From a virus: a stretch of 26,482 nt of DNA. How positions within the stretch are numbered: position 1 is the first letter of the stretch; every line of letters begins with the position of its first letter. A program made the position numbers and the translations under genes. Of the stretch, positions 522-20,555 are shown piece by piece. The stretch covers positions 1 to 26,482 of IMG/VR virus record IMGVR_UViG_3300030106_000608, one strand, 5' to 3'. The notes below the pieces were generated by a model, which worked only from the letters and a program-made list of their open reading frames with translations, had not been told where the DNA came from and searched no databases.

Positions 522-753
522 TCTGTTGTCTAACCGCTTCTGGGTCAGAGTCTTCAAAAGGTAACAGATCAGCAAGTCTTCCTAGTGGAGTATGCTGTTC
601 AGTAATACTAATAATATCGTTATCTTTAAGGAGTTGCCTAGCACCATTTAAGATAGCAGCATTAAATTCCCCTGTCTCATGCATCTCTGATATAGCTGTA
701 GAGTAAGTTTCTGCTACTTGTACCTGTAGCTTTTCTAAGCGTTCTCGTTTCAT
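514..753 (-). CDS. terS: Terminase small subunit (T7 gp18-like)
   Basis: A 79-residue protein placed directly before the large terminase, the position of T7 gene 18 (89 residues). Small terminases bind the packaging site or the concatemer and regulate the large subunit. The sequence is predicted mainly helical: residues 1-28 form an amphipathic helix, followed by a stretch with LNGARQLLKDNDI near residues 35-47 that is typical of podoviral small terminases, and an acidic C-terminus (LLPFEDSDPEA). The assignment rests on position, length and this central motif rather than on a catalytic residue. Its start overlaps the stop of the preceding membrane protein (ATGA, 4 bases) and its own stop overlaps the terminase large-subunit start, so all three are probably translationally coupled. 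A GAGGAA stretch lies about 12 bases before the ATG, farther away than usual. Confidence 0.85.
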   Translation of the reverse strand: MKRERLEKLQVQVAETYSTAISEMHETGEFNAAILNGARQLLKDNDIISITEQHTPLGRLADLLPFEDSDPEAVRQQNG

Positions 754-1022
754 TGATTGTTATTGTTCCTCATCATTAGTTCTAGAAGTCTATCAAGTTT
801 ATCGTTCATTGACTCTAGTTTCTGCTCAAGACCATGTATACGTTTTTCAACAGATAGATCACGTTCATGTTGAGCAGCTAGTTCTACTTCTATCTTTGTT
901 AAACGTCTTTCGTCGCTATCAAGTCTATCACTAAACTTCTTACCGATCCAACCGAATACACCAAGAACAACAGCTAATATACTGTCAAGGAAGTGGGAGA
1001 TTTGTTCAGCCATTGGTTCCAT
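750..1022 (-). CDS. Small membrane protein with coiled coil (holin or inner-membrane spanin candidate)
   Basis: A 90-residue protein with a hydrophobic segment at about residues 9-27 (FLDSILAVVLGVFGWIG) followed by a long charged heptad-like region (about 32-85, ending LEQKLESMNDKLDRLLELM) that should form a coiled coil. It occupies the place of T7 gene 17.5 (holin), between tail fibre and small terminase. However, one N-terminal membrane segment followed by a coiled coil is also the layout of inner-membrane spanins (Rz; T7 gp18.5). The sequence alone does not decide between them, and small phage proteins of this shape are often left unassigned. I kept the first ATG at 1022; an ATG three codons later (1013) is equally plausible. 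The stop overlaps the small terminase start by four bases. Confidence 0.7.
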   Translation of the reverse strand: MEPMAEQISHFLDSILAVVLGVFGWIGKKFSDRLDSDERRLTKIEVELAAQHERDLSVEKRIHGLEQKLESMNDKLDRLLELMMRNNNNQ

Positions 1023-5000: not shown

Positions 5001-6542
5001 GCTCTTGGTATACTTACTCCATAACGTATCGGTATTTGTTTTGCCAAGGTTCATTACCATAGCTGTAAGTACATCCGACCTGCTTTTCTTTCCTCGCTTT
5101 TCTAACTTTTTTAAAGCTTTTACTAGGTTAAACTCTTTAGGTCGTTTATGTCTTACAAAGCTAAAGAGGTCTTCGGGATCAGTTTTACTAATACTTTCTA
5201 CAGTCTGTAATAATACATCTACCCTATCAAATACCTCTTTAACTTCGTCTCTGTATTCTACTGTTTTATTAAAGTCGAATGCCTTGAATTTCTTTAAAGC
5301 TTCCTCTTTAGTAAGTTCTGTAGCTTGTCCAAATGCACCTACATTACGTGCTGCTAAAGTCTTTGCTGCTACTGTTCCAGCCTTTGCGTCTATTTGTACA
5401 GCAAGTCTATAGGCTTTAAGTAGACCTTTAATCTTTTCTACTTCTGTTCGTATCTCGTTAAAGTTGTTAACGTCAGGTTTAGTAAACAGTTTAGCGATCT
5501 TTGCGTAGATTCTATCTATTTCTGGAAATAGTTTAACTTCTGTCTCTAATAAGAAAATCTTACTTGCTTGCATTTGTGAAGGTAAGTCCTTCATCGTTGC
5601 TAGTTTCTTTAGTAGATTATCTTCGATTTCATCAACGTCTGCTTCCTTTATATTTTCTGGATCAACATCTCCAAAGAAACTATCTTCTTTAGCAGGTTTA
5701 AAATCGCTCATTCCAGCCTGACTTAGGTCTTCAGCTTTAATGCCAGTAACTTCATCGAAATCCTTACTGATCTCTGTTATGTTAGCTAAGATTGTACTAG
5801 CTGCTCCGTCTCCTTTTTCCTCAATTATCTCATCTATTGTTTTACCTTCCTCAAGAGCTTCTTTAATTTCGTCAGTTTCTTTTAACGCTTTCTTTACTAC
5901 CTTTGCCTGTTTACCAGAAAACGTAACCATTTCTTTGTAGGCTTTACCTATGCTACCAAAACCAAGGTTTAATCCAGCACCCCATAGCATACCTGTTAAA
6001 ACCTCTTCTGATCGTTTATTAAGGCTTTCTAGTATAGTAGCCTCATCTTCAACATCTGCTGCTATAAAGTCTGCTACACCACCTCTTAACGCTCCATCCG
6101 TCATGAGCCTTGTAGCCCATCCAGCAGATTTACCTACGTTATTACGTTCAATTCTATTAACATTACGACTAAGAGATTTAAAAAACTTATCACCTCGTTT
6201 AGTAGCTTGAATACCTTTTCCTACTGTCTGTACTCCTTTTGCAACCGCTCCCCCAGCAGTAAAGAAACCCAATATGATAGAACCTACTTCAGCTCCTACT
6301 TCCTCAAACCCTGCTTCAGCTTCTCCGTAAATATTACGTTCTGTATTTATTCTTGTACGTCCTCCGCTAAATTCAGAAATCGTATTAACAGTATCATCGA
6401 ACAATCTTACAGGTATTCTACCTATGGTAGTTGCTGATTTCTGATACCAAGGAACTTTATACCTACTTGCCTGTAAAGCTTCTGTTATACGAGCAGTATC
6501 AAACGATACAGTATCAGTTCTTTGTAGTGTTTCGATACTCAT
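2088..6542 (-). CDS. Internal virion protein D (T7 gp16-like), lacking the transglycosylase domain
   Basis: A 1484-residue protein, the largest in the window and the positional equivalent of T7 gp16 (1318 residues), which leaves the virion to build the DNA ejection channel across the envelope. It is mostly helical and charged. The N-terminus has hydrophobic Gly/Ala-rich stretches (IILGFFTAGGAVAKGV near residues 89-104; LTGMLWGAGLNLGFGSIG near 182-199). The second half has the segments usual for podoviral gp16 relatives, such as HPKTWLIGPVSGTFHLIADP, AFDDIFRTAGTMRALRAEAM and VIRQFIIPFVKTPTAIGQW. I see no lytic transglycosylase signature (Glu-Ser-x-Phe followed by Gly-Leu-Met-Gln) at the N-terminus, unlike T7. 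A Lys-rich run lies around 4950-4985. Its ATG overlaps the preceding stop as TAATG. Confidence 0.88.
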   Translation of the reverse strand: MSIETLQRTDTVSFDTARITEALQASRYKVPWYQKSATTIGRIPVRLFDDTVNTISEFSGGRTRINTERNIYGEAEAGFEEVGAEVGSIILGFFTAGGAVAKGVQTVGKGIQATKRGDKFFKSLSRNVNRIERNNVGKSAGWATRLMTDGALRGGVADFIAADVEDEATILESLNKRSEEVLTGMLWGAGLNLGFGSIGKAYKEMVTFSGKQAKVVKKALKETDEIKEALEEGKTIDEIIEEKGDGAASTILANITEISKDFDEVTGIKAEDLSQAGMSDFKPAKEDSFFGDVDPENIKEADVDEIEDNLLKKLATMKDLPSQMQASKIFLLETEVKLFPEIDRIYAKIAKLFTKPDVNNFNEIRTEVEKIKGLLKAYRLAVQIDAKAGTVAAKTLAARNVGAFGQATELTKEEALKKFKAFDFNKTVEYRDEVKEVFDRVDVLLQTVESISKTDPEDLFSFVRHKRPKEFNLVKALKKLEKRGKKSRSDVLTAMVMNLGKTNTDTLWSKYTKSIKDFLKKNKKKKKKPSEKALLNVFSKSIRDKLNKKIEGAKPEAKTKLQKLEKQLSEVNDLVGNKDKVNALLKELGAEELTSVKNVDELIEGDIDKLAEDLLKYGDELDFEELGIDGDLASKILNSAEELKLRNQFDLEQEELFKAAAKEKQLKELEKLLDTGDEDQIQKFFEDIDAKATKQEKDEVDQLIAKRKSQLKKMSNPTLEDVSVLLMNDLEGLVARMEIEPPSRWENFNRGFEKFRMSMMLFHPKTWLIGPVSGTFHLIADPIINAVRAYNKIKIGKKEGRYENVEALKYAWTEIRSAFFGRDIWESLRMFGAAWKKGRSAFNPRINDRFYQEFMDVSDTLTPQKLAGMNPAQKKKFKELIEVYGTDNETTKTELQKFLRTLQESDNAQGLAKVFDFFTSISFRNMGAFDDIFRTAGTMRALRAEAMQKALIAGKTTEADLNKYMEEYIKKATSKDSQGLLQWNMLEEFKNVEQAGLATTYQADYSDKAFSQMMKKLADWSRDYKNDDPVRLVIRQFIIPFVKTPTAIGQWIIDKSIGMGVYRRWNAGVTFKKEKDIINTKINDLKASERNAVDINLEIQELEKAKETLTTATIQAKADAMADIYTGITLATTFVGMAYSGNITGSGNHMTSEEKEMAKQAGWKPFMLKLPFTNLQISYERIEPISAFLSIAADMVAHYDRKNEFKRKGYTDEDGHNLTMTLIAGLAEIARNKYFLRSVSDLLSIAQFNEPERRQGLAQNMTNSYIASLTPRIIKDIREITDPYQKEARSTLGKLEDRVIGGTNEGYKRNIFGEKVERQRSREGFGLLSPVYFYGKKVNDPLLRDMSRMQANFGQKSRHVQSLQGQRVNTRDYLDDKGRSLHDAWLEHMGKFSIRNKRIRQAVRDEYRKLKDQARLPINAPEGQDSIANRLNTLINDYEKESFRDFVNTKGRRFKHVDDGQSVANLQPEKPLLKLLDINPRTSF

Positions 6543-13391: not shown

Positions 13392-14456
13392 TTACTTGAT
13401 GAGTTCGATAGCACACTCAGGACGGAGGATTCCGTGACCCATTGCATACTTAGCTACGAACAGCGTACCTTGACGCTCAATCTGATATTCCGATTCGGTA
13501 GCAAGATCAAGAAGCTTGACCGTACCAACAGCAGCAGAATGACCAACAATACCTAATGTGGTAGTGAAGTCTCCGTTGTAGCCGTTGCCAGCACCGAAGG
13601 GATCATTAACAGCATTGTCATCATCACCAGAGATAGTGTTTGTGGAAGGAACATGATTGCTCTTGAAGATGTTAATTCCTGCAATTTGAGGAATGATACC
13701 TTGAGCAACAGAACCTTGTCCGCCAACATCGGTGTTAAGTGCGCTGTTTGCTACGTTAATACCAGAAGTTGCACCACCAGTAATTAGCTTGTAGTACTCT
13801 TCGGGACGAATAACGCAGAAACGACCATCACTAGGAACATCGTTTTCGTCTAGCTTTTGAGCAGAACTGAAGAGAGCGGTAATAAGCTCAGCACCAGTAG
13901 GATCGCCAGCAGCATCTGAGTCATCACCAGCGGAATAACTAGCATCAGATAGGAACTTATCTTGACCAACGTCTAGACGATCTCCACCATTTCCTGCTGT
14001 TAGATTAGCTGCTGAACGCGCGGCTCCGATAAAGGTCTTGAGTACAGCAGTATCAAAACGATTAGCAAGAGCGTTGCCCAACTCATTTGCATAGACACTA
14101 CGAATATCATAATGATTCATAACGTCATCGATGTTAGCTAGGAAGGAAGAAGCCAACAGAACTTTGTCGATGCTGATAACCTTTTCGCTTTTAGCAATGT
14201 CCGATAGGTAACTATTACCACTATCTGCAATGTTTTGACCAACTGTGTGGTACTTTGCGGAAGCAACGCCAGTTACAGGAAACTGTGCAGACTTACCGTC
14301 ACTAATAGTACGGATCGTGTGCAGAGGTTTCATAATGTTCTTTTCCTCAAATGTGGTAAGAATCTCACCACTAAACTTTTTAAGGAATAGTTCTTGATTA
14401 TCTGAGCCGCCTTGTTTAAGGCCAACCCGTGATGGAGTAGTGTCTCCGTTTGCCAT
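13392..14456 (-). CDS. Major capsid protein (T7 gp10-like)
   Basis: A 354-residue protein (T7 gp10A has 345) with the HK97-type capsid signatures of T7-like phages: GGSDNQELFLKKFSGEILTT at 16-35 (N-terminal helix), FEEKNIMKPLHTIRTISDGK (36-55), the spine-helix segment NIDDVMNHYDIRSVYANELG near 108-127 with FDTAVLKTFIGAA after it, and FCVIRPEEYYKLI in the A domain. The C-terminus AKYAMGHGILRPECAIEL also matches the family. The insert with SDAAGDPTG and the loop with SGDDDNAVNDPFGAGNG are acidic and Gly-rich, probably surface loops. Codons look richer in G and C than in the internal virion genes, as expected for a highly expressed gene. It is isolated between an upstream terminator and a downstream hairpin. 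A weak AGAAAG precedes the ATG. I see no slippery site for a gp10B-like frameshift product. Confidence 0.96.
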   Translation of the reverse strand: MANGDTTPSRVGLKQGGSDNQELFLKKFSGEILTTFEEKNIMKPLHTIRTISDGKSAQFPVTGVASAKYHTVGQNIADSGNSYLSDIAKSEKVISIDKVLLASSFLANIDDVMNHYDIRSVYANELGNALANRFDTAVLKTFIGAARSAANLTAGNGGDRLDVGQDKFLSDASYSAGDDSDAAGDPTGAELITALFSSAQKLDENDVPSDGRFCVIRPEEYYKLITGGATSGINVANSALNTDVGGQGSVAQGIIPQIAGINIFKSNHVPSTNTISGDDDNAVNDPFGAGNGYNGDFTTTLGIVGHSAAVGTVKLLDLATESEYQIERQGTLFVAKYAMGHGILRPECAIELIK

Positions 14457-14569: not shown

Positions 14570-14624
14570 AAAAAAAAATAAAACCCCCCACCAAGGAGAA
14601 AGAAAGCAAAACCTTGATGAGGGG
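14570..14624 (-). terminator. Strong intrinsic terminator upstream of the capsid gene
   Basis: On the minus strand CCCCTCATCAAGG pairs fully with CCTTGGTGGGGGG (13 pairs, two of them G-U), enclosing a 15-base pyrimidine-rich loop, and is followed directly by TTTTATTTTTTTTT. Stem and U-tract form a textbook Rho-independent terminator for minus-strand transcripts. In the plus-strand sense the two G-U pairs become C-A mismatches and no U-tract follows, so the element is oriented. It lies about 55 bases after the lipoprotein stop codon and about 115 bases before the capsid ATG. Confidence 0.88.
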
Positions 14625-14679: not shown

Positions 14680-14925
14680 CTATTCTTCTTCGGGTTCCAA
14701 AGCACCCATATGATGTCCTTCGGGATATTCAACCTTATTTGCTGATAACTCCCACTCTTCTCCGTTCCAAAAGTATACTTTACCCTTTACCTTTGGGCCT
14801 ACTCTTAGAATCTGACTTTGAGAGTCCACGAAGACTACCCTCGTGTTCCCGCATCCGCTCAAGAAAACGCTCGCGATCAGGACTGATAGGAGCATCTTTA
14901 GCTTTGACTGGTTTTTTAACTTCAC
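14680..14925 (-). CDS. Lipoprotein nested in the preceding gene (outer-membrane spanin candidate)
   Basis: An 81-residue protein with a clear type II signal peptide: basic n-region (KLKNQSKLK), hydrophobic core MLLSVLIASVFL and lipobox LSGC with the lipidated Cys25. The mature part (about 57 residues) has RVVFVDSQSQILRVGPKVKG, then YFWNGEEWELSANKVEYPEG, and an acidic end. I recall similar small lipoproteins in marine podoviruses, without a proven function. The first 146 bases lie inside the 68-residue gene in another frame, the classic arrangement of Rz1 within Rz, so an outer-membrane spanin role is a reasonable inference. It lacks the Pro-rich stretch common in Rz1. The start is GTG at 14925, with an in-frame stop just before it; an ATG at 14895 would remove the basic n-region and is less likely. 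Confidence 0.75.
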   Translation of the reverse strand: MKLKNQSKLKMLLSVLIASVFLSGCGNTRVVFVDSQSQILRVGPKVKGKVYFWNGEEWELSANKVEYPEGHHMGALEPEEE

Positions 14926-14986
14926 GGATTACGTTTTTAAATAGTGCATTAAATAAACTTTGTAGGATAGCTATAACTATCTTCAC
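14780..14986 (-). CDS. Small basic protein overlapping a lipoprotein gene (lysis cassette candidate)
   Basis: A 68-residue protein starting with GTG, which overlaps the stop of the holin-like gene (GTGA). Residues 1-20 (KIVIAILQSLFNALFKNVI) form a hydrophobic to amphipathic helix that may sit in or on the membrane. The rest is highly charged (SPDRERFLERMREHEGSLRG) and ends in a Ser/Lys/Gly tail. The lipoprotein gene is embedded in its second half in another frame. By position it would be the inner-membrane partner of a spanin pair, but it is short, the membrane segment is weak and no coiled coil is evident, so this role is uncertain. That it is a real gene is supported by the four-base overlap and by its place in a compact cassette. 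Confidence 0.6.
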   Translation of the reverse strand: MKIVIAILQSLFNALFKNVIREVKKPVKAKDAPISPDRERFLERMREHEGSLRGLSKSDSKSRPKGKG

Positions 14987-15159
14987 TTTTCTTTAGCTTT
15001 ACCTACGTTTATTGCGAGTGTATCGATTAGTGCATATAACTTTTTAACAATGCCATCATCCTTTGGGGTAGGAGTTAAAGCGGCTACTGCTGAAGCCAAT
15101 GCTACTGCTGATGTGAGGATAAGGACAATGCCTTCCCAGTTTGATTGTACGAATTCCAT
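14983..15159 (-). CDS. Small membrane protein, holin-like (58 residues)
   Basis: Translating the gap after the scaffold gene gives an uninterrupted ORF: MEFVQSNWEGIVLILTSAV, then a hydrophobic Ala-rich helix to about residue 29, TPTPKDDGIVKKLYALIDTL, and a basic end LAINVGKAKEK. One membrane segment (about 10-29) followed by the TPTPKDD motif and an amphipathic helix ending in NVGKAK is a pattern I remember from small phage proteins often called holin. Holins make the inner-membrane lesion that starts lysis; here this is inferred from topology and neighbours. It starts five bases after the scaffold stop, without a Shine-Dalgarno match, and its TGA overlaps the GTG of the next gene. Short length would hide it from many gene finders. 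Confidence 0.72.
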   Translation of the reverse strand: MEFVQSNWEGIVLILTSAVALASAVAALTPTPKDDGIVKKLYALIDTLAINVGKAKEK

Positions 15160-15164
15160 AATAT

Positions 15165-15968
15165 TTAAAAGTTACTTACTTTGAGCCTTCTGTCAACCTC
15201 TGCATGATATGCTTTGTCTCCTGATTTATAACGTGGATCACTCATAGCTGCTCTTACAGCTTGCATATCACTAAAAGGAGTTACACCAGCACCGCTAGTG
15301 TTGCCCATAGTAAGGTTAGGTTGTGATGTTCCTGATTTATAACGAGCATACAGACCACTAACTGCCATTTTAGCAGCATTAATATCCAGTCCTTCTACTA
15401 CGTTGTTGTAAGCTTCTAGCTCGTTTGGTTGTAAGTTTTGTACTGCCCACTCTCCCATCTGTTCGTACTCACCATTAGCCGCCCCTTTAATTTCTGTTGT
15501 TCGTTGAGTGGTAAGAGCTTGTTGACCAGCAATATAACTATTAACAATATCTTCACTAATCCCAAACTCAGCTAATGTTTCATATGTGTCCTTAGAAAGC
15601 TCTCCGTTTCCGTGAAACTCTTCAGATGCATACGTAAGAACTTCAGATGTGTTTACCTCTACAGTTTCTTCACCATTTTCGTTGGTAGTAGTTTCTTCTT
15701 TACCTTGCGATAATTTAGTTTCTAGTTCCTGATACGAATTAACAAGGTCTTCAATACTGTTAAACTTATCAGGTAATCCATCAGGTCGTTCACCTTGACC
15801 AAGCTTTAATGAGTTATCTTCTAACTCTTGCTCCTCTGCTACTTCCCCTTCTTCTTGGGAGTCTGTAGCGATATGATCAGGTTGCGGTTGTTCCTCTACT
15901 GTTTTGGAAGCTGGTTCAATCTCCCCTTGTGTGGGTTCATTAATTTCTACTGTAGTTAGTTCTGCCAT
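15165..15968 (-). CDS. Capsid assembly scaffolding protein (T7 gp9-like)
   Basis: A 267-residue acidic protein between portal and capsid, the place of T7 gp9 (307 residues). Scaffolds guide assembly of the procapsid and leave it before DNA packaging. The first about 60 residues are extremely acidic and low in complexity (Glu, Gln, Thr). RPDGLPDKFNSIEDLVNSYQ near 62-81 followed by ELETKL is the conserved core of podoviral scaffolds. The C-terminal quarter contains DMQAVRAAMSDPRYKSGDKA and YHAEVDRRLKVSNF, a short basic helix-turn-helix-like tail that in this family binds the capsid protein. GAGGA precedes the ATG at good distance, and the gene begins two bases after the portal stop. Confidence 0.9.
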   Translation of the reverse strand: MAELTTVEINEPTQGEIEPASKTVEEQPQPDHIATDSQEEGEVAEEQELEDNSLKLGQGERPDGLPDKFNSIEDLVNSYQELETKLSQGKEETTTNENGEETVEVNTSEVLTYASEEFHGNGELSKDTYETLAEFGISEDIVNSYIAGQQALTTQRTTEIKGAANGEYEQMGEWAVQNLQPNELEAYNNVVEGLDINAAKMAVSGLYARYKSGTSQPNLTMGNTSGAGVTPFSDMQAVRAAMSDPRYKSGDKAYHAEVDRRLKVSNF

Positions 15969-20225: not shown

Positions 20226-20555
20226 TTATAGGGATTGGGTTGTACCAGTTGCGTATACGTTTATTGTTCCGTCACTATAACTAGAGGTTACTGCACGTAG
20301 CTTTTCGTAGTGACCTTCGTCATCGCGCACCATGTAGTTACCAGCAGTTGTAATAACTTCTTGATGGATGCTGTACCAACTCGTACCAATATACGCTTCT
20401 ATATCTACGGTAACGCTTGCTGAACCAGTAGCTTCAATACTGTATGTCCAACCTTTGGCACGTTCTACTGGATGGGGGCTTCCTGTTGTGTTGGCATAAC
20501 AATTACTAAGGAGCGTTTCCTTTTGTAGTTTTATTAAGTTATTGTAGTTACTCAT
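20226..20555 (-). CDS. Small unknown protein, beta-rich (109 residues)
   Basis: I do not recognise this protein. It has a short N-terminal helix (NNLIKLQKETLLSN) and then mainly beta-type sequence with TYSIEATGSASVTVDIEAYI, TSWYSIHQEVITTAGNYMV, YEKLRAVTSSYSDGTINVYA and a polar end. The alternation of strands and small residues suggests a compact beta sandwich and a structural role, in line with its neighbours. There is no signal peptide or membrane segment. A strong AGGAG lies about eight bases before the ATG, and the ATG overlaps the preceding stop (ATGA). It ends two bases before the LamG gene, so the two products are probably made together. Confidence 0.7.
   Translation of the reverse strand: MSNYNNLIKLQKETLLSNCYANTTGSPHPVERAKGWTYSIEATGSASVTVDIEAYIGTSWYSIHQEVITTAGNYMVRDDEGHYEKLRAVTSSYSDGTINVYATGTTQSL

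Follow-up and report, generated by a model that had tools for sequence, protein, structure and literature searches.

A T7-like marine virus carries, between its scaffold and capsid genes, a trio of small overlapping genes that most likely helps to break the outer membrane of the host as infection ends. The second and third genes, c68 and lipo81, probably encode an overlapped two-component equivalent of a spanin, strung together with, and probably translationally coupled to, the holin-like gene h58. From gene content and order, the lysis reading of the cassette is well supported. The cassette is spanin-like in position, architecture and company, yet c68 lacks a convincing transmembrane (TM) segment and the pair lacks a spanin family match and the expected cysteines; we therefore call it a spanin equivalent.

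All three genes lie on the minus strand of the window (the whole 26,482-nt stretch of DNA analysed here). The features discussed below are:

14983..15159, minus strand: h58, 58 aa, single TM segment; holin-like, phrog_9685 (unknown function)
14780..14986, minus strand: c68, 68 aa, basic; candidate i-spanin equivalent
14680..14925, minus strand: lipo81, 81-aa lipoprotein, LSGC; candidate o-spanin equivalent
14780..14925, minus strand: dual-frame coding stretch of c68 and lipo81, 146 bp
15165..15968, minus strand: capsid assembly/scaffold protein (T7 gp9 type), upstream of the trio; phrog_1052 4e-43, PF05396 9.2e-14
13392..14456, minus strand: major capsid protein (T7 gp10 type), downstream of the trio; PF21703 5.3e-67
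750..1022, minus strand: cc90, TM segment plus coiled coil, in the tail fibre/small terminase interval; weak phrog_1296 holin match, 0.0025

The three genes overlap in series, with the coordinates and lengths (58, 68 and 81 residues) of the original prediction. The GTG start of c68 shares 4 nt (GTGA) with the TGA stop of h58. The start of lipo81 lies 61 nt inside c68, in the +1 frame; lipo81 overlaps c68 for 146 bp and then extends 100 bp beyond the c68 stop. Among the arrangements recognised for spanin genes (embedded, overlapped or separated adjacent pairs), this one is 'overlapped' in accepted terms rather than 'nested/embedded'; the lipoprotein had been predicted correctly as to its LSGC motif and its 146 out-of-frame bases, but not as a nested gene. 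A GTG is the likely lipo81 start: with it the basic n-region is retained, an ATG stands there in relatives, and an internal ATG is not conserved. The small and large terminase genes abut in the window, so that the slot between them that holds the T7 spanins is empty. No endolysin is visible in the window, as expected of a fragment. A terminator-like site at 14584-14600 was dismissed as within chance expectation. Between lipo81 and the capsid gene one relative (L003) has a 51-aa basic ORF (~6272-6428) that is absent from the window, and Ayaqvirus has other lysine-rich small ORFs at that place.

Searches of IMG/VR confirmed 139 relatives of h58 and 167 of lipo81, and 80 were kept for each; h58 homologues thus comprise 80 viral loci, together with 38 genome contigs. 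Profile models of c68 and lipo81 match together in 103 of the 103 distinct loci having either, although viral contigs are redundant and locus counts are therefore not independent events. Of the 87 pairs that could be measured, 86 have lipo81 overlapping c68, and in 82 the frame is +1. Selection was examined in 12 close relatives by simulating changes in the overlap with the amino-acid changes of the other frame held (300 runs). The c68 frame carries 47 amino-acid changes where 56.9 are expected with lipo81 held (1 of 300 simulations was as low), and the lipo81 frame carries 30 where 53.5 are expected with c68 held (0 of 300). Purifying selection acts on both overlap frames, lipo81 being the better conserved partner by these counts, and all three genes are genuine, with conservation beyond chance. 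The original prediction had named loss of one overlapping frame in relatives as evidence against it; both frames are kept.

lipo81 has the signal of an outer-membrane lipoprotein expected of an o-spanin, with an LSGC lipobox, a basic n-region and Gly at +2. It is the sole lipoprotein in the 26-kb window by a strict six-frame lipobox scan, and again the sole one found in a relative of 34,950 bases (L217/L218); the scan is home-made and missed P2 LysC and L064-type lipoproteins, so absence in the scan is no proof. The mature part, which has no cysteine beyond that of the lipobox, is predicted to form a small six-stranded beta domain (pLDDT ~87 at residues 41-70, overall pTM only 0.38). A BFVD fold search with this model gave one clear match, an unnamed protein that is 49% identical (A0A516LV47); a PDB fold search, a PDB sequence profile search and a lipo81 profile search of the genome contigs each returned nothing. 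Neither lipo81 nor c68 of the window has a firm match to a recognised spanin family. lipo81 has weak matches to phrog_3198 (0.029) and phrog_1275 (0.045) through its signal region, and the trio proteins gave no Pfam match above cut-off and weak PHROG matches. Among cultured phages, tblastn with lipo81 and c68 turned up no genuine relative. A match in Vibrio phage 83AMN (E 0.02) has a lysozyme gene next to it but was discounted, since it spans no more than 40 N-terminal residues, or 49% of the query.

Phage lipoproteins with other roles exist, and the late head-gene site and weak spanin match of lipo81 would suit a superinfection-exclusion, moron or virion lipoprotein with no lysis role. We regard this as very improbable in view of the conserved out-of-frame overlap with c68, the endolysin and holin-like genes that adjoin the cassette in unrelated genomes, and the spanin family members that occupy the identical slot in relatives (see below).

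The inner-membrane partner looks unlike known ones. c68 (net charge +9) has an N-terminal amphipathic helix followed by a charged second helix, modelled by AlphaFold at residues 2-23 and 37-60 with moderate confidence. Its helical moment is strong (0.60-0.68), and charged residues about four apart recur in the N-terminal helix of relatives, such as R9, E13 and K17 in L011. An i-spanin is a type II inner-membrane protein with an N-terminal TM segment. On our TM scale (dG-like; home-made, not a trained predictor) the N-terminal segment of c68 scores +1.1 and the family median is +2.2, compared with -1.0 for T7 gp18.5, -4.3 for lambda Rz and -5.0 for P2 LysB, the i-spanin controls from the phage collection. 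Partners linked to h58 elsewhere mostly share this amphipathic, non-TM character; nearer to a TM segment are those of LUZ100 (borderline, -0.2) and Cellvibrio (-0.8). c68 has no cysteines for intermolecular disulfides and no match to the spanin families in PHROGs, and the best match in its family is to phrog_5151 (0.018, in 4 of 34 members). c68 strains the i-spanin definition, its N-terminus being an amphipathic helix with no convincing TM segment. The original prediction had placed the c68 GTG in the preceding stop, where it is, and had proposed an unusual spanin type with a partner that is not a typical Rz. An unusual spanin type is supported; the hydrophobic N-terminus has to be given up. 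Against the spanin-equivalent reading we counted the lack of a clear TM segment in c68 and of cysteines in c68 and mature lipo81, the weak spanin-family matches of lipo81 and the lack of any for c68, and the absence of an endolysin from the incomplete contig.

A protein with the charge, helical moment and two-helix model of c68, and no clear TM segment, might instead break the outer membrane alone, as a basic amphipathic peptide-like factor freed through holin lesions and acting from inside, with lipo81 as its receptor or helper. This is improbable: the charge varies (family median +3, from -4 to +9; the counterparts in L060 and L057 are negative), the lipoprotein is never missing and is the better conserved of the two, and recognised Rz-like spanin lipoproteins fill the slot elsewhere.

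The spanin-equivalent reading draws on the gene company of the cassette. Spanin genes are expected to be linked to holin or endolysin genes, and such linkage is found in unrelated relatives, where h58 and an overlapping pair of short-protein and lipoprotein genes adjoin endolysin genes in both phages and prophages. Members of a podovirus clade (L014, L024, L039, L041, L047, L048, L054 and L080) have h58, the short protein, the lipoprotein, usually a 55-57-aa TM protein, and an amidase (Amidase_3 confirmed in L014, L024 and L054). An M15-type endolysin directly precedes or follows the trio in L008 and L060, and L069 has an amidase. On genome contigs h58 lies beside a phrog_938-type or M15 endolysin in L180, L183, L202, L209 and L214; in L196 and L199 the endolysin match of the neighbouring gene is weaker or less specific. 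The overlapping pair accompanies h58 next to the endolysin in L183, L199 and L202; in L180, L209 and L214 h58 itself adjoins it. The lipoprotein that follows h58 in L008, L060 and L199 belongs to the Rz-like phrog_8971 (1.5e-11, 8.5e-13 and 3.2e-6), and its partner to phrog_9219.

The gene directly upstream of c68/lipo81 is h58 in 35 of 103 loci and, in 51, a holin-like gene (two-TM or other), representatives of which match the PHROG holins phrog_9987 (9.6e-9) and, weakly, phrog_920 (0.002) and phrog_34682 (0.0026). Neither lies directly upstream in 17 loci; L108 and L109 have h58 after the pair. In another phage group (a 34-locus cluster with some large contigs; L161:1447-2628) a tubulin/FtsZ-like gene precedes the holin-like gene, c68 and lipo81; near the L161 cassette it starts ~1.6 kb upstream (PF00091 9.3e-8). 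A 20-locus cluster (L110:6076-6582) encodes a second lipoprotein-like protein of ~170 aa, with no Pfam match, at most ~2 kb downstream of c68/lipo81.

The single clear TM segment predicted for the 58-residue protein is present in h58 at about residues 11-28 (dG-like -2.0; KD 2.36 at 10-28), together with a conserved TPTPKDD motif and a C-terminal amphipathic helix. h58 thus has the small size and at least one TM segment expected of a holin. It has no match to holin families, and 34 of 34 members match phrog_9685, of unknown function. Its good TM segment, its distribution (the most widespread of the three) and its replacement by holin-like genes elsewhere favour a holin. We keep to the term holin-like because a second holin candidate occupies the position of T7 gene 17.5 in these T7-like phages: gp50 of LUZ100 is a separate holin of the gene-17.5 type, a holin-like 73-aa gene precedes the small terminase, large terminase and amidase genes of L219, and cc90 is a candidate for the alternative holin of the window. 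The trio had been likened to a holin plus Rz/Rz1; the neighbours and the Rz-like spanins in the slot of relatives agree with a lysis-type cassette, but gp50 and cc90 speak against h58 as the holin part of that comparison. On balance we lean slightly towards h58 being a holin, and give the remainder of the probability to a spanin-step accessory or an antiholin.

The sole clear TM segment of the trio is in h58, whereas c68 may bind membranes without obviously crossing them; the two genes share the tight GTGA overlap, and a holin-like gene precedes c68 in many phages. This would fit a holin/antiholin pair of h58 and c68 that leaves envelope action to lipo81 only. We think it unlikely to be correct. 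Rhizobium T7-like phages and prophages retain h58 with no detectable c68/lipo81 pair, h58 standing alone in the scaffold-capsid gap of the phages, and c68 and lipo81 stay together where h58 is absent or replaced, so c68 tracks lipo81 rather than h58.

Further evidence for c68 and lipo81 as a spanin equivalent comes from the same scaffold-capsid slot in T7-like relatives. In the cultured Pseudomonas aeruginosa phage LUZ100, gp37 is homologous to h58, and the lipoprotein gp38 falls in the Rz-like spanin family phrog_1275 (1.6e-12). An unannotated GTG ORF between the two (OP329100.1 20275-20511; L088:5195-5431) has a GTGA overlap with the gp37 stop and an 86-base overlap with gp38. LUZ100 thus resembles the window in trio order, GTGA start, overlapping lipoprotein, scaffold-capsid location and homologous h58, and differs in that its lipoprotein belongs to phrog_1275, with two extra cysteines in the mature part, and its i-protein is nearer to having a TM segment. 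No spanin equivalents could be annotated in the LUZ100 publication (PMC10134795); the 20275-20511 ORF and gp38 are candidates for the spanin pair that this phage was reported to lack. A phrog_1275 lipoprotein also lies between h58 and the capsid gene in T7-like prophages of Telmatospirillum (L193, 3e-14) and Devosia (L211, 1e-13). Spanin-family matches are restricted to the counterparts in LUZ100, L193, L211, L008, L060 and L199.

Ayaqvirus S45C18 (AP013544.1) likewise has, between scaffold and capsid, an h58 homologue (BAQ94256) and then a lipoprotein-bearing gene, that of the 104-aa BAQ94255. Its unannotated lipoprotein (L001:11766-11987, minus strand), the sole one by the strict scan, differs from lipo81 in being fully embedded, out of frame, in BAQ94255 and in belonging to another sequence family (weak phrog_456, 0.012). 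The presence of spanin-type lipoproteins of different families in one slot beside h58 is as expected from exchange of functional equivalents. In the regions fetched from cultured pelagiphages, Roseobacter phages and P-SSP7, the interval holds other small genes and no lipoprotein by the strict scan. We found no literature on a spanin sited between scaffold and capsid. A tRNA-Asn gene lies in this interval near h58 in LUZ100 (L088:5751-5826) and RHEph01 (L166:4214-4284); these tRNA genes are possibly linked to the integration sites of these T7-like phages.

Among known systems, the closest in architecture are overlapped spanins of the P2 LysB/LysC type, in which the lipoprotein gene also starts in the +1 frame inside its partner and extends past its end. 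The combined periplasmic length of c68 and lipo81 (~103 aa) falls within the 62-300 range given by Kongari et al. (2018; PMC6139136). Unlike the P2 type, the partner in the window has 68 residues, an amphipathic N-terminus, no cysteines and no family-level match, and the pair is sited between scaffold and capsid. The window shares the T7-like late gene order with T7, whose gp18.5/gp18.7 (Rz/Rz1) and gp17.5 would be expected to serve the same lysis step. The T7 pair sits past the tail fibre among the terminase genes and the window pair between the counterparts of gp9 and gp10, so the prediction of a cassette inside the head genes, unlike T7, stands on comparison of the gene orders; no sequence match between the two pairs was detectable. 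The periplasmic domain of lambda Rz1 is unstructured, in contrast to the predicted beta domain of lipo81.

We propose that lipo81, by its lipobox and Gly at +2, would be lipidated and anchored in the outer membrane, which would place its small beta domain in the periplasm, and that c68 would bind the inner membrane through its predicted N-terminal amphipathic helix, its final side being part of the proposal. Holin and endolysin would first open the inner membrane and remove the peptidoglycan. By analogy with spanins, c68 and lipo81 would then meet, draw the inner and outer membranes together and disrupt the latter. h58, linked genetically to both, would have a putative role as the holin or as an accessory of the spanin step. 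A more far-reaching version, which we hold as a tentative possibility, is a distinct outer-membrane lysis class in which a beta-domain lipoprotein acts with an amphipathic-helix-anchored partner that becomes periplasmic only after the holin has acted, so that holin opening would arm the outer-membrane step.

The site of the cassette inside the head operon is unexpected, and its second or third gene is often left unannotated because of the overlap. About 13% of surveyed Gram-negative phages, many marine cyanophages among them, are listed without a spanin (PMC6139136). A TM-segment filter for i-spanins is in use (PMC12596118), and inner partners of the c68 type would be discarded by filters that require such a segment. 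The genes described here, those of cultured LUZ100 included, are a concrete set for asking whether spanins are at work in 'spanin-less' phages and whether an amphipathic anchor can stand in for a TM segment. The distinct amphipathic-anchor lysis class, if true, would explain some of the phages that are currently recorded as spanin-less.
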